The notes beneath the pieces are model-generated. The model did no database searches, was not told where the DNA came from, and was given only the letters and a program-made list of their open reading frames with translations. DNA of 64,000 nucleotides from Planotetraspora sp. A-T 1434 (GTDB lineage: Bacteria > Actinomycetota > Actinomycetes > Streptosporangiales > Streptosporangiaceae), in contig NZ_JAOEGB010000006.1 in NCBI RefSeq assembly GCF_025420585.1, positions 186,001-250,000 on the forward strand, in the 5' to 3' direction. The position numbers and the translations under genes were made by a program. Below, piece after piece: positions 12,831 to 48,833 of the stretch. Numbering within the stretch: position 1 is the first letter of the stretch; the number at the start of each line of letters is the position of its first letter.

Positions 12831-13856
12831 CTATCCGGCGTCGGGAGTTGCCAGGTCAGACCCCCGGCGCTCCTCCTCGGCCAGATGGAGGCCGGCCTCG
12901 ATGACGGCGTTCATGACGGGCGCGAGGCGTGCCTCGCCGAGACGGGGAGCGCGGCGCGCCATGGCCGCGACCAGACGGCGCTCCCGCTCCATGTCGCGGC
13001 CCCGGAAGCCCCCGACGGGCTTCAGCCGCTGGATCGTCCCGGCAAGCCCGGCCCGGCGCTCCAGGAGGATCGCGAGGGCCGCGTCGACCCGGTCGATCGC
13101 CTCCCTCGCGTCTGCGACCCTTCCGTGCGCCTCCGGCCGTACGAGAGCGGCCAGGACCGTGGCGGCCTCGTGCGCCGCCTCGGCGGTCGCCTGCGAGGCG
13201 GCGGGGGCGAGCAGCAACCCGTCCGCGCCGGCGGCGACCGCCGCGCCCGCGAGCGCCGGGTCGTCGCCCAGGTAGGCGAGCACCGGACGGCCCGAGCGCC
13301 GCCGGGCGGCCCCCATCAGCGCGAGGTCCAGCGTGACGTCTCCCAGATCGGCACGGCCATCCAGATCGGCACGGCCATCCAGATCGGCACGGCTCCCCGG
13401 ATGGGTGCGGCCGCCCAGATCGGCACGGCTCCCCGGATGGGTGCGGCCGCCCAGATGGGTACGGCTGCCGCTCTCGCACAGCACCACCCGTTCGTTCCCC
13501 TCGGCGGCGCAGAGGTCCGCGACGGCCAGCCACTCCTCCAGCGTGGCCGTGTGGCCGCGCTGGACGACGACCGGCAGGCCGAGCCGCGCCACCGCCCGCA
13601 CGAGGTCCAGGTCGTGCGCCCACGCGGCGCCGACGACCACGGCGTCGGCCGGTTCCGCGACCGCGGCCAGGTCGTCGGCCCCGGAGGGCTCCACGAGCAG
13701 CGGGCCCTGCCACGCGGCGCGCATCTCCTCTGCCGGGACGCGGCCTCTCACCCATCGGGCGTGGTCCCCGCCGATCACGGCGACGGGCATGCCGTCCCCG
13801 ATGGCGAGATCCCCGATTCGTACCGCACCGCGGTCGAGCTGGGCTACCTGCGACAT
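12831..13856 (-). CDS. Chorismate mutase (AroQ) fused to a degraded DAHP-synthase-like domain
   Basis: 341 residues from the ATG at 13856, preceded by AGGAG at good spacing; an ATG further upstream (13907) would lie inside the leader region. The C-terminal ~90 residues are an AroQ chorismate mutase with the expected Arg (AREAIDRVD), Arg (LERRAGLA), Lys (QRLKPVGG) and RDMERE. This domain should convert chorismate to prephenate for Phe and Tyr. The N-terminal ~220 residues follow the type I-beta DAHP synthase (VVVQRGHTATLEEW, RVVLCESGSRT, LDLALMGAARR) but have lost key parts. The AGPC metal-ligand Cys is gone, the KPRTSPY segment is absent, the KRG lysine is Gln, and the DVTHS His and AEVHP Glu are missing. 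I infer a non-catalytic regulatory or partner-binding domain. Automated annotation would probably call it a bifunctional DAHP synthase. A 108-bp exact repeat sits in this domain. Confidence 0.8.
   Translation of the reverse strand: MSQVAQLDRGAVRIGDLAIGDGMPVAVIGGDHARWVRGRVPAEEMRAAWQGPLLVEPSGADDLAAVAEPADAVVVGAAWAHDLDLVRAVARLGLPVVVQRGHTATLEEWLAVADLCAAEGNERVVLCESGSRTHLGGRTHPGSRADLGGRTHPGSRADLDGRADLDGRADLGDVTLDLALMGAARRRSGRPVLAYLGDDPALAGAAVAAGADGLLLAPAASQATAEAAHEAATVLAALVRPEAHGRVADAREAIDRVDAALAILLERRAGLAGTIQRLKPVGGFRGRDMERERRLVAAMARRAPRLGEARLAPVMNAVIEAGLHLAEEERRGSDLATPDAG
13344..13451. repeat. In-frame tandem repeat inside the DAHP-synthase-like domain
   Basis: Two exact 18-bp copies (13344-13361 and 13362-13379) are followed by two exact 36-bp copies (13380-13415 and 13416-13451); all four begin with CAGATCGGCACGGC. 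On the coding strand they give alternating RADL, DGRADL and GGRTHPGS units. All units are multiples of 3, so the frame is kept. They fall just after the CESGSRT strand, where the active enzyme would have a loop. Confidence 0.9.
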
Positions 13857-13910
13857 TTCGGCTCCTAGTGGCCTAGTGGGCCGGCCCATCAACCGGCTCG
13901 TTGACAACGA

Positions 13911-13939
13911 AAAAGGCAGAGACGCGATGTCTCTGCCTT
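13911..13939 (-). terminator. Intrinsic terminator in the leader of the chorismate mutase gene
   Basis: On the minus strand AAGGCAGAGAC (13939-13929), loop ATCGC, GTCTCTGCCTT (13923-13913), then a T-run that continues the stem: an 11-bp perfect hairpin with five T in a row. It stands 54 bases before the start codon and downstream of a short aromatic leader ORF. It is therefore best read as the terminator arm of an attenuator rather than the end of another gene; the only upstream gene runs the other way. Confidence 0.8.
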
Positions 13940-14000
13940 CAGCCGGCTCCGGATGGTCGCTAGATCACGATCGGGCGACCGGCCCTCCCGGAGCCGGCTG
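13940..14000 (-). promoter_or_regulatory. Upstream attenuator stem (13-bp perfect inverted repeat)
   Basis: CAGCCGGCTCCGG (minus strand, 14000-13988) and CCGGAGCCGGCTG (13952-13940) are exact reverse complements separated by 35 bases. The first arm lies inside the leader ORF, just after its Tyr/Phe codons, and the second arm directly abuts the terminator hairpin. A ribosome stalled on the aromatic codons would cover the first arm. The alternative pairing that would break the terminator is not obvious to me. Confidence 0.65.
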
Positions 14001-14024
14001 CGTAAACGTGAAATACCTAGCCAC
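13965..14024 (-). CDS. Putative aromatic leader peptide (attenuation)
   Basis: A 19-codon ORF, GTG start, TGA stop, translated as MARYFTFTQPAPGGPVARS. Three of codons 4-7 are aromatic: TAT, TTC and TTT. TAGGGT (14037-14032) lies 7 bases before the GTG, so transcription could begin at the start codon. The ORF is followed by two consecutive hairpins, the second a terminator, and then the chorismate mutase gene. This is the layout of leader-peptide attenuation by Phe/Tyr supply and fits the predicted enzyme. It is too short to support by coding statistics alone. Confidence 0.65.
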   Translation of the reverse strand: MARYFTFTQPAPGGPVARS

Positions 14025-14031
14025 GAACCCG

Positions 14032-14037
14032 ACCCTA
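14032..14037 (-). promoter_or_regulatory. Candidate -10 box for the attenuator transcript
   Basis: TAGGGT on the minus strand, 7 bases before the leader GTG. A TTCCAG 17 bases further upstream is a poor -35. The remaining bases to 14161 form the upstream region of the first kinase gene. Confidence 0.4.
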
Positions 14038-14161: not shown

Positions 14162-16846
14162 ATGTCACAAACGGAAGGCCGGCTCGTCGGAGGCCGGTAC
14201 CACCTTGTGGAGCCGATCGGCCGGGGTGGCATGGGCGTCGTGTGGCGGGCGCACGACGAACTGCTGGACCGCGAGGTCGCGGTCAAGGAGGTCCGTTACG
14301 ACAGCGCGATGGGCGACGAGCTCAGCGATCTCAACCGGCGCACCATGCGGGAGGCGCGGGCGGCGGGCCGCCTCACCCACCCCAACGTGGTCGTCGTCCA
14401 CGACGTGATCGAGGAGGACGGCCGCCCCTGGATCATCATGCAGCTCGTCAGGTCACGCTCGCTCGGCCAGGTGATCCGCGAGGACGGACCGCTCTCACCC
14501 GACCGGACCGTCGAAATCGGGCTGCAGATCCTCGACGCCCTGCGCGCCGCCCACCGGCAGGGCGTGCTGCACCGGGACGTCAAGCCGGAGAACGTGCTGC
14601 TCACCGACGACGGGCGGGTGGTCCTGACCGACTTCGGCATCGCCCGTCTCGAGGCCGATTCGACGATGACCCGCACCGGGCTCGTCGGCACCCCGGCGTT
14701 CATCGCGCCTGAACGGCTCCGCGGCGGCCCCGCGCAGCGCGAGTCGGACCTGTGGTCACTGGGCGCCACGCTGTACTCCGCGGTTGAGGGCAAGCCCCCG
14801 CACGACCGCGGCATGGCCATGGCCACCATGCACGCCGTGCTGAACGACGAACCCACGCTTCCGAGCAGGGCAGGACGGCTGGGGCCGGTGCTTCTGCGCC
14901 TGCTCGCCAAGGAACCGGCCGACCGGCCGGGCTACGACGAGACGGCCAGGCTGCTGAAGCAGGCGGCCCGTCCCACTCCCACCGGCACCGCCGTCATGCC
15001 GGCCGTACATCTGTCGACCGAGCCCCCCGCATCAAGTGAACCGGGTCCGGGCGCGGGTTCCGGTTCGGCGTCCTCGGCTCCGGGTGCCGGTGCCGATGGG
15101 GGTCCAGGTGGCGGCGGGGGTGCGCCCAGGCCGACACCGTCCCCCGCCGCGAAGCCCCCCGCATCGGCGAAGCCCCCGGCGTCCGCGGCCGCGAGAGGTG
15201 CGGCAAGCCCTGCCGGGTCCCCGGTAGGCGGCCTCCCTCCGGCATCGGCCGGAGAGAGGTCTTCCGGCCAGGCGAAAGCCGTTCCAGCTTCAGAGCCGGG
15301 CTCCGGCCGCGGAGCGGGGGACCCGGCCGCCGAGCCCGGACGCCAGCACCCCCGTAAGGCAGGCGACGAAAGCCCCTCGGCGGCGGGCGATGACCGCGCG
15401 GCAGCCGCAGAGTCGCGACAGGGCTCCCCCTCACCGGGCGCGCGGAGTGCCACGACGTCGGGCGACCACGGCGGCTCCCCCGCGCCGGGCGACCGGAGAG
15501 GGCCGGCGGCCTCTCGCGACGGGCGCGACCGCGACGAAGACTCACCTGACATGCGGAGCCCCGCACTCGCCGGCTCCGACTTGGCCGACGACTGGAGCGC
15601 CCAGAACCCAGGGACCCAGAACCCAGGGACCCAGCACCCAGGGACCCAGCACCCAGGGACCCAGCACCCGGAGAGCCGGCACCGGGACGACCAGCACCGG
15701 GACGACCACGATCCCGGTGACGGCTACGGGAGCGGCCAGGAGGCGGCACCGGGTGAGATCACCTCACCCATCCCGGTCGTCCGCGAGAGCGGCCGGCCCG
15801 CTGGCGCAACCCCGTCCTCGGCCGCCCCCACTCCCTCGCCCTCGTCCCCTGCGCCCGCGCCTCCGCCTGCGTCCAAGCCCGCCGTATCTCCCGGCCCGCC
15901 GGCCTCGTCCTCCCCCACGACGCCTCCCTCTGCCCGCCGTCAGCCGATGCCGGAGACGGGTGCGCAGGCCGCACCCACCAGGCGCGACAGCCCGCCCTTC
16001 GGCCGGCGCGCCGACGACGCGGGACCGGGTTGGGGCGGGGCGGCAGCCGTGCCGACCGCCGACCAAGGGGGCGCTCCGGCCGTGCCCACGCAGCGGAGCG
16101 AGATCTGGCGCGGGGACGCGCAGACCGGGCCGGTCGAGCGGCGTCCGAGGCCCATGCTCAAGGCGGCCCTTGTGATCGTCCCAGCCTTGCTTGTCATCGC
16201 GGGCATCGCGGGATATCTCGGTCTTCGCGCGGGCAAACGCGACTCGGGGAACGGCGCGACGGACGGCAAGGCGTCATCTTCCGCACCGCCGTCCCACAAG
16301 CCATCCCCGCCATCCGCGTCGGCCTCCGAGAAGCCCAGTCAGGCGAGTTCCACGCCGACCCCCTCTGACAAGCCGTCGCCGACCCCCACGACATCGAAGC
16401 CCGCTGACGTTCCGGACGGCTGGCACCGGTACAAGGACAAGAGCGGCTTCTCCGTCGCCCTGCCCAAGGGCTGGGACGTCAGCAAGCGAAGCGGCACAAC
16501 GGTGTGGCTCCGCGGTCCCGGCACTCCAGGCTTCCTGCTCATCGATCAGACGGACACCCCGCGGAAGGACGCGAAGAAGGACTGGGAGAACCAAGAGCGG
16601 AGCCGGCGGTACTCCTTCGCCAACTACAAGCGCGTGAAGATCGTGTCGGTGGACTACTGGAAGGAGGCGGCCGACTGGGAGTTCACGTTCGGATCGGGGT
16701 CAGGCCGCACGCACGTGGTCAACCGCGGGTTCGTCACCGACAAACACCACGGCTACGCGATCTACTGGAGCACTCCGGACAGCCGCTGGGACAAGGACCA
16801 CCACTTCTTCGAGACCTTCACCACCACCTTCAAGCCCGCCAAATGA
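14162..16846 (+). CDS. Receptor Ser/Thr protein kinase 1, long disordered linker and C-terminal sensor domain
   Basis: 894 residues. A Hanks-type kinase domain covers ~10-275: GRGGMG glycine loop, Lys42 in AVKEV, catalytic HRDVKPEN with Asp139, DFG at 157-159 and GTPAFIAPE. The Thr/Ser-containing activation loop (STMTRTGL) suggests autophosphorylation. A ~390-residue Pro/Ala/Ser/Gly-rich linker follows, with 15-bp tandem repeats (NPGTQ/HPGTQ). One membrane span lies near 666-688, then a Ser/Pro stalk and a ~145-residue outer domain (GWHRYKDKSGFSVALPKGW to TFKPAK). The same outer domain ends kinase 2, so it is probably a shared ligand or envelope sensor; no PASTA repeats are present. The ATG at 14162 follows GGGAGGGG. 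Its stop overlaps the start of a broken methyltransferase gene as ATGA. Confidence 0.93.
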   Translation: MSQTEGRLVGGRYHLVEPIGRGGMGVVWRAHDELLDREVAVKEVRYDSAMGDELSDLNRRTMREARAAGRLTHPNVVVVHDVIEEDGRPWIIMQLVRSRSLGQVIREDGPLSPDRTVEIGLQILDALRAAHRQGVLHRDVKPENVLLTDDGRVVLTDFGIARLEADSTMTRTGLVGTPAFIAPERLRGGPAQRESDLWSLGATLYSAVEGKPPHDRGMAMATMHAVLNDEPTLPSRAGRLGPVLLRLLAKEPADRPGYDETARLLKQAARPTPTGTAVMPAVHLSTEPPASSEPGPGAGSGSASSAPGAGADGGPGGGGGAPRPTPSPAAKPPASAKPPASAAARGAASPAGSPVGGLPPASAGERSSGQAKAVPASEPGSGRGAGDPAAEPGRQHPRKAGDESPSAAGDDRAAAAESRQGSPSPGARSATTSGDHGGSPAPGDRRGPAASRDGRDRDEDSPDMRSPALAGSDLADDWSAQNPGTQNPGTQHPGTQHPGTQHPESRHRDDQHRDDHDPGDGYGSGQEAAPGEITSPIPVVRESGRPAGATPSSAAPTPSPSSPAPAPPPASKPAVSPGPPASSSPTTPPSARRQPMPETGAQAAPTRRDSPPFGRRADDAGPGWGGAAAVPTADQGGAPAVPTQRSEIWRGDAQTGPVERRPRPMLKAALVIVPALLVIAGIAGYLGLRAGKRDSGNGATDGKASSSAPPSHKPSPPSASASEKPSQASSTPTPSDKPSPTPTTSKPADVPDGWHRYKDKSGFSVALPKGWDVSKRSGTTVWLRGPGTPGFLLIDQTDTPRKDAKKDWENQERSRRYSFANYKRVKIVSVDYWKEAADWEFTFGSGSGRTHVVNRGFVTDKHHGYAIYWSTPDSRWDKDHHFFETFTTTFKPAK
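15601..15671. repeat. 15-bp tandem repeat in the kinase 1 linker
   Basis: Four 15-bp units and a partial fifth: CCAGAACCCAGGGAC twice, CCAGCACCCAGGGAC twice, then a broken copy. They encode the pentapeptide (N/H)PGTQ in the cytoplasmic disordered linker. The copy number is likely to vary between strains. Confidence 0.85.
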
Positions 16847-48607: not shown

Positions 48608-48833
48608 CGCTTTCCAACCCCCAACTGGCCGCTTCGAAGCTCGCGGATGCGCGGCTGCCGCCGGTGATTACCCTACGGATCCCCACCCATGCCGGCCTCT
48701 TCGGGAGGCCGACCCGTCCGGCCAGGTCCCCATCCGCGTCGCCTGCCGCGGCATCTGACACCGGGGAAGGTGCATCAGCTGCCGCATGGGAGCGGGTGGA
48801 GACCTCGCCGAACGTCACCGACGGGTCGATCGA

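Follow-up and report, generated by a model that had tools for sequence, protein, structure and literature searches.

Does a ribosome translating a short leader govern the transcription of the chorismate mutase gene in Planotetraspora sp. A-T 1434, and if so, how would its position act on the terminator that stands before the gene? The question arises from a stretch of 64,000 nucleotides of contig NZ_JAOEGB010000006.1 (positions 186,001 to 250,000), here called the window. A preliminary description had placed on its minus strand a -10-like TAGGGT, a 19-codon ORF with Tyr-Phe-Thr-Phe codons, a 13-bp perfect inverted repeat and an 11-bp hairpin with a T-run, and had read them as a Tyr/Phe attenuator of the chorismate mutase (CM) gene that follows. 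All of these elements were present where it had located them. The analysis adds four features that the description lacked: the leaderless transcript predicted from the 7 nt between -10 element and start codon, the bias towards TTT, the rod structure, and a partial copy of the first arm past the terminator. The sections below examine what the elements are likely to do.

Organization of the leader region

The whole leader is read on the minus strand. The -10 element TAGGGT (14032-14037) is separated by 7 nt from the GTG at 14024, which opens a leader ORF of 19 codons ending with a TGA at 13965 (13965-14024; peptide VARYFTFTQPAPGGPVARS); the start was assigned from this spacing, on account of which the transcript is predicted to be leaderless. 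Near the hairpin the codons read TAT TTC ACG TTT (Tyr-Phe-Thr-Phe), and the comparison of leaders described below points to the last of them, TTT at 14004-14006 with A as the next base, as the control codon. Directly 3' of the control codon region lies arm A of a long hairpin (CAGCCGGCTCCGG, 13988-14000), which forms a 13-bp perfect repeat with arm B (CCGGAGCCGGCTG, 13940-13952), giving the pairing 14000-13988 / 13952-13940. Arm B adjoins the intrinsic terminator (13913-13939), an 11-bp hairpin (13939-13929 / 13923-13913) of the form AAGGCAGAGAC-ATCGC-GTCTCTGCCTT that runs into the T-rich TTTCGTT.

Folding and co-evolution define the remaining segments. Segment M (13955-13965), at and just past the stop codon, has two candidate partners: segment A', which holds the 5' half of an inner stem of the long hairpin (GGTCGC, 13975-13980), and segment zero (GCTAGGT, 14015-14021), with which it would make a rod. 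Segment A' is also partly able to pair locally with arm A. Past the terminator, segment D (AGCCGGTT, window 13898-13891) is a copy of part of arm A and is able to pair with arm B. The Shine-Dalgarno sequence AGGAG (13862-13866) and the CM gene (12831-13856, ATG at 13856) follow. Since the nearest upstream long ORF (14162-16846, plus strand) is divergent and points the other way, the terminator does not serve an earlier gene.

Shuffled sequences averaged -42.3 kcal/mol, whereas the predicted fold of the leader RNA reached -62.5 kcal/mol (z -5.8), a value that none of 200 shuffles attained. Searches with Rfam 15, which includes the T-box, riboswitches and known leaders, returned no family above its gathering score at the leader, the weak matches lying far below. 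Elsewhere in the window, the mraW RNA motif of Rfam was matched above the gathering score (53.9 bits; 48704-48821, minus strand).

The protein encoded downstream

Identification of the next gene downstream as a chorismate mutase gene was borne out by a type II chorismate mutase domain (PF01817, 6e-08), which scored above the cut-off. The protein joins a partial DAHP-synthase-like N-terminal region to this AroQ-type domain. Of the 270 positions of the Pfam DAHP synthase family, the N-terminal part covers just the central 96-172, and it has VVQRG in place of the LLKRG of the two best-matching solved DAHP synthases, so that it looks like a degenerate and probably non-catalytic domain, as judged from its sequence. 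The chorismate mutase domain is the sole domain matched in some relatives (e.g., L026 and L029). The linker of the window protein carries a repeat run (RTHPGSRADLGG, DGRADL; about 13460-13340, minus strand), which is absent in the aligned relatives. A second match to the chorismate mutase family, a stronger one, is present in the same genome at locus L203.

Conservation and distribution of the leader

The preliminary description had proposed comparison with relatives as the check on its reading, and leader codons, stems and terminator were all found to be kept. The first sample comprised the best 30 CM loci from 100 genomes, the window's own and its relatives (further genomes with CM matches exist), and the same leader was recognized in 25 of these 30 loci, the window's counted. 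For two of the five misses, L018 and L028, the sequence available before the gene is too short to judge; the element is absent at the other three, L011, L017 and L025, though the CM gene is there (3 of the 28 loci with upstream sequence). A covariance model (R1) built from the 25 leaders gave one full-length match in the 7.8-Mb genome of the window, at E 1e-31; the sole other match there was to the palindromic part on the opposite strand.

Class-wide, 75 of 394 genomes passed the threshold of E 0.01, and 72 of them, the window's included, hold a full-length leader, the other three (G221, G288 and G380) having the palindromic part only. Phylum-wide, 5 carriers were found in 296 genomes, the window's included, and all belong to the class. 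No genome of family f20, of which at least eight were searched, was among the class or phylum matches. A second sample, the best 80 of 181 CM loci found, covered Planotetraspora, Streptosporangium, Microbispora, Nonomuraea, Actinoallomurus and other genera, and 75 of its 80 loci were matched by the model, L135 weakly (29 bits); the misses were three Herbidospora loci, one MAG (L198) and L199, which starts at a contig edge. Because the leader is conserved in relatives, it is more than a chance arrangement; on this comparative evidence the element described is genuine and its conservation strong.

The predicted start is conserved as well. A TAnnnT hexamer lies 6 nt (23 loci) or 7 nt (52 loci) before the ATG or GTG start in 75 of 75 matched loci of the 80-locus set, and this spacing was not built into the search, since the model begins at the start codon. 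The leader transcript is thus predicted to begin at its own start codon, as do leaders of Streptomyces lividans (trpL, leuL, ilvL, thrL and metL), according to the available text of PMC8079986, which also counts alaL among the leader peptides of that species.

A single phenylalanine codon as the likely control codon

At the sequence level the element has a short leader ORF with codons for an end product of the pathway. Comparison of 75 unique leaders (74 from the 80-locus set and the window) showed that the codon just 5' of the hairpin encodes Phe in 74 and is TTT in 72, and that a Phe two codons earlier is TTC in 35 of 35 cases (Fisher p 2e-26 against the TTT of the control position). By comparison, Phe is encoded twice by TTT and 74 times by TTC in four long genes of the window. 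Furthermore, the base directly after TTT is A in 72 of the 72 TTT-bearing leaders of the 80-locus set (TTTA in 72/75), and the residue that follows the control Phe varies among T, I, R and M. Since TTT is rare here, and since the next base is fixed as A even though the next residue varies, the control codon itself appears to be under selection.

Sensing of both Tyr and Phe, as originally suggested, is narrowed by these data to essentially one Phe codon, Tyr being variable and present in only 53 of the 75 leaders. As few as one aromatic residue is encoded in 10 of the 75, and a single codon is nearly invariant. An in-frame stop precedes arm B in 105 of 106 CM leaders.

The peptide itself looks conserved, and one could imagine that FTxPAPGGPV acts on the ribosome exit tunnel when a ligand is sensed and arrests its own translation. 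Its conservation tracks the RNA, however: the codons for T, I, R or M after the control Phe share only their first base, A; all 75 leaders use CCG for the aligned Pro; and the same region reads PARVAGR or EAPGGAD in other lineages. Arrest by the nascent peptide is therefore an explanation to which we give hardly any credence.

Leader codons in relation to the downstream gene

The 155 unique leaders were sorted by downstream gene into 111 before CM, 41 before DAHP synthase and 1 before a tRNA synthetase, with 2 cut by contig ends; 153 of 155 thus precede one of these three kinds of gene, the synthetase being of the tyrosyl type, and these were the only kinds sought. A Pfam scan of ten representatives agreed with the sorting (five DAHP synthases, four chorismate mutases and one tRNA synthetase). 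Trp codons occur in 2 of the 111 CM leaders and in 28 of the 41 homologous DAHP synthase leaders. DAHP synthase supplies Phe, Tyr and Trp, whereas chorismate mutase, past the Trp branch, supplies Phe and Tyr only, so the Trp split between the two groups is as expected from the place of chorismate mutase after the branch. The single tRNA synthetase case (L109, genome G409) has the element with a Tyr-only leader (VLTRRVYPNGSGVSRSPARP) before a class I tRNA synthetase gene of a Pfam family that covers the Tyr and Trp enzymes, and which we take to be tyrS.

The same distribution bears on the idea that leader, hairpins and terminator make up a gene of their own, for a small RNA or a small protein, which neighbours chorismate mutase by chance. 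The terminator alone would yield a stable RNA, estimated from the fold at about 115 nt. The association of 153 of the 155 leaders with three aromatic gene types, the other two being cut by contig ends, speaks against a chance neighbour, and so does the window, where no TAnnnT lies between the terminator and the gene. We regard an independent gene as very improbable.

Two alternative folds of the leader

The window and 55 of the 75 matched leaders of the 80-locus set were aligned on the structure of the window. The long hairpin, inner stem and terminator are made of standard pairs in 95.4% of the cells (window and 55 CM leaders), and 10 pairs have changed on both sides; shuffles gave 4.4 such pairs, and none of the 500 reached 10. 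The perfect 13-bp repeat reported for the window is perfect there, but its two outermost pairs often fail to form elsewhere, being open in 10 of 41 and in 39 of 54 cells.

Alternative pairings were assessed by comparing cognate with non-cognate duplex energies in 40 representatives of 149 leaders, which are not phylogenetically independent; the 149 were what remained of the 155 after removal of L100, L099 and L115, in which the rule found no terminator, and of three more without an A:B run of 7. Control codons, arms and terminators were assigned automatically and are plainly wrong in L019, L108 and L135, which adds noise. The helices that co-evolve in the 40 representatives are the terminator arms (z -15.6), A:B (-14.9), zero:M (-7.0), A':M (-5.6) and B:D (-4.4). 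Among the 31 representatives of the CM-like subset, set by peptide pattern and holding at least three DAHP synthase leaders (L064, L108 and L116), the values were -12.2 for A:B, -5.7 for A':M, -5.0 for zero:M and -2.4 for B:D; the other nine gave -4.9 for A:B, -2.5 for zero:M, -2.2 for B:D and only -0.3 for A':M. A:A' had also been considered as a co-evolving helix; being weak overall (z -1.6, p 0.05, 40 representatives) and +0.2 in the CM-like subset, it is kept as a possible helix. On these figures for A':M and A:A', pairing partners in the rod vary more than those in the hairpin.

Since zero:M and the combination of A:B with A':M both co-evolve and are mutually exclusive, the leader has two folds. 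It looks bistable on this comparative evidence, alternating between a rod that joins the start of the ORF to the stretch past its stop codon and the long hairpin made of A:B and A':M. The zero:M helix shifts register between lineages. When arm B is held open, a rod with at least 4 zero:M pairs forms in 102 of 106 CM leaders, and it averages 6.6 kcal/mol above the unconstrained minimum in CM leaders. The long hairpin stands close to the terminator, 136 of 152 leaders having a gap of between -1 and 4 nt.

Co-evolution of B with D over all 40 representatives and in both subsets, together with a match of 13 bp between arm B and segment D in L024, would suit translational or combined control, in which the choice of arm B between A and D decides how the read-through mRNA folds near the ribosome-binding site of the chorismate mutase gene. 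However, the B:D match leaves the Shine-Dalgarno sequence uncovered in the leaders inspected, and the terminator is conserved, which would be pointless under purely translational control; we consider this explanation unlikely. A role of arm B as a ribosome-binding sequence (GGAG) was dropped, as the arm reads GTCCGAACCGGC in L020.

A terminator without a detectable antiterminator

At the sequence level an intrinsic terminator lies between the leader ORF and the structural gene. A classical trp-type attenuator would also have an antiterminator that contains one of the terminator arms, and no upstream segment was found to co-evolve with either arm in the 40 representatives (z -0.5 to +2.7). Cognate complementarity of upstream segments to the 5' terminator arm was no better than non-cognate (z +0.5 to +2.7), the lowest upstream:terminator-arm value among the nine non-CM-like representatives was z -1.5, and when RNAduplex was run on the 5' arm and the RNA preceding it in 152 leaders, the mean z relative to shuffles was +0.7. 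The best upstream duplex with the terminator arm in the window's CM leader has -6.2 kcal/mol and is weaker than those of shuffles (z +1.4). These results bear out the doubt voiced in the preliminary description, that no clear antiterminator pairing could be seen, and lend no support to a classical scheme whereby ribosome stalling would free the second arm of the repeat for antitermination.

Folding models agree. A ribosome placed on the control codon, with the footprint customary for such models, lowered the pairing probability at the last six bases of arm B to 0.29 from 0.84 (106 CM leaders). The terminator was equally folded with and without stalling, 0.96 of it being paired either way (75 leaders); from folding alone, termination is therefore predicted in every state. 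Two further candidates were set aside. In some folds the control-codon region (GCGUUU) pairs with an AGAC in the terminator arm; this was dropped because, by eye, the pairing is impossible in lineages with other terminator sequences. As for a frameshift at UUU-A that would carry the ribosome through the terminator, selection to keep a shifted frame open left no trace: across the 5' arm and loop of the terminator the +1 frame is open in 75 of 106 CM leaders (68 expected from shuffles) and in 20 of 29 representatives (18.9 expected), and the +2 frame in 36 of 106 (55 expected).

Two DAHP synthase leaders of family f28, L112 (G370) and L117 (G362), keep the A/A'/B plan and add a pairing of A' with the terminator arm (z -4.6 in L117; seen by eye in L112). 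These two leaders may connect the classical type with the insulated one.

The genome of the window also holds a second aromatic leader, MRTAFAFWYGDGPVRTARPQALR (L201/L205; G000:C72:294727-294871, minus strand), before its type I DAHP synthase gene, which starts 142 nt past the leader start. Like the CM leader, it is predicted to be leaderless and has aromatic codons and a terminator before the gene; unlike the CM leader, it has Phe-Trp-Tyr codons, carries a classical antiterminator and is not matched by model R1. The genome encodes one type II and one type I DAHP synthase, and a pattern scan upstream of the type II gene and of L203 revealed no such leader. The DAHP synthase leader region matches 47 of 100 genomes of the family, the window's included, and the leader ORF is visible in 46 of the 47 loci fetched, a selection that required Trp and so favoured the pattern. 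GGACCCG or a variant of it, behind the leader codons, pairs with the terminator arm: the antiterminator duplex has -13.9 kcal/mol or less in 17 of 17 representatives (mean -20.7) and involves nt 31-36 in 16 of 17, and the upstream RNA co-varies in energy with the 5' terminator arm (z -2.1, p 0.02, 17 representatives). The duplex of the window genome (-20.5) is unexceptional against base shuffles (z -1.1, p 0.15), because the arm is very GC-rich. Judged on sequence, this leader is of the classical antiterminator type, and the contrast with the -6.2 kcal/mol of the CM leader is plain.

A hidden antiterminator would restore classical attenuation to the CM leader, if weak, non-contiguous, tertiary or protein-assisted pairing engaged a terminator arm on stalling. 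L117 does pair in this way, L112 of the same genus seems by eye to do likewise, and the other leader of the window genome is classical; but complementarity to the terminator arms stayed at or below the non-cognate level for every segment tested, and the window's best duplex fell short of its shuffles. A pairing of this kind strikes us as rather unlikely. The terminator of the CM leader, if really insulated from the upstream RNA as these comparisons suggest, is unusual.

Proposed mechanism of regulation

We judge it probable, from comparison of leaders and predicted folds, that the element is a ribosome-mediated transcription attenuator that would sense charged Phe-tRNA, with Tyr-tRNA in a minor role, and control the chorismate mutase gene through an insulated terminator. 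A leaderless transcript starting at the leader start codon would be loaded early with a 70S ribosome. If Phe were plentiful, the ribosome would pass UUU and reach the stop codon, A:B would form together with A':M flush with the terminator, and transcription would end before the gene. If Phe-tRNA were scarce, a ribosome parked on UUU would mask the lower half of arm A as well as segment zero; formation of the rod would be blocked, the lower part of arm B beside the terminator would stay single-stranded, and more polymerases would read through. On a transcript without a ribosome, the rod (zero:M and A:A') would close the leader ORF and later be replaced by A:B.

Since the modelled ribosome frees arm B, leaves the terminator unchanged and acts on a hairpin that adjoins it, we propose tuning by contact: the neighbouring hairpin would alter terminator strength by its presence, and not by sequestering a terminator arm. 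The comparisons above support the leader with its control codon, both alternative folds and the terminator; stalling, readthrough and, above all, the coupling of hairpin to terminator are what we infer from them. The more general proposal is tentative, and we would call it possible rather than probable: a ribosome may set the efficiency of an intrinsic terminator without strand exchange, a bistable leader placing or withholding a long hairpin flush with an insulated terminator, and one homologous element may do so in actinobacteria before genes for chorismate mutase, DAHP synthase and tyrosyl-tRNA synthetase.

The element would add chorismate mutase to the actinobacterial genes under leader-peptide control. 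It is widespread, has no Rfam 15 match here and seems to use a rare synonymous codon to mark the site of sensing. Should the insulation of the terminator prove real, the effect of upstream RNA structure on intrinsic termination could be studied here in a clean natural system, for which the genome itself supplies a control in the form of a classical attenuator of the aromatic pathway. These actinomycetes channel aromatic amino acids into many natural products, which makes the control point of practical interest.

Comparison with known attenuators

In the pheL-pheA attenuator of enterobacteria, a leader with a Shine-Dalgarno start and many Phe codons precedes a chorismate mutase gene, and the RNA has an intrinsic terminator and a classical antiterminator. 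The CM leader resembles it in its Phe codons before a chorismate mutase gene and in its intrinsic terminator; it differs in that no antiterminator was found, in its predicted leaderless start and in its one nearly invariant Phe codon. The available text of PMC11802643 names the enterobacterial system too.

Among actinobacteria, the structures described by Seliverstov et al. (2005) concern Trp, Cys and Leu/Ilv genes and ileS, and no conserved structures are reported for other amino acid pathways in the available text (PMC1262725). These leaders and those of S. lividans share with the CM leader a short ORF, few control codons, an often leaderless start and hairpins before the gene; they differ from it in that the available texts give no Phe/Tyr or chorismate mutase leader (PMC8079986, PMC1262725), the words phenylalanine and chorismate mutase being absent from that of PMC8079986. 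A 2026 paper deals with transcription attenuation of ilvB1NC in mycobacteria (PMC13236596).

The open-access literature, with few subscription journals covered, yielded no chorismate mutase leader in actinobacteria among the matches listed, and no papers on tandem terminators were found in the open-access literature. The aroR-aroF attenuator of Corynebacterium glutamicum was reportedly described by Neshat et al. in 2014. Its leader aroR, with Phe-Tyr-Phe codons (given likewise in the available text of PMC4046766), controls the DAHP synthase gene aroF and responds to Phe and not to Tyr, according to the available text of PMC11802643. The preliminary description, which knew of no described case of this gene in actinomycetes, is thus upheld within the open-access literature, but the type of control is already represented by aroR-aroF (PMC11802643, available text). 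Likened by description and not by RNA, aroR-aroF shares with the CM leader an actinobacterial leader peptide, Phe/Tyr codons and a gene of the aromatic pathway, and differs in that it controls DAHP synthase rather than chorismate mutase (PMC11802643, available text).
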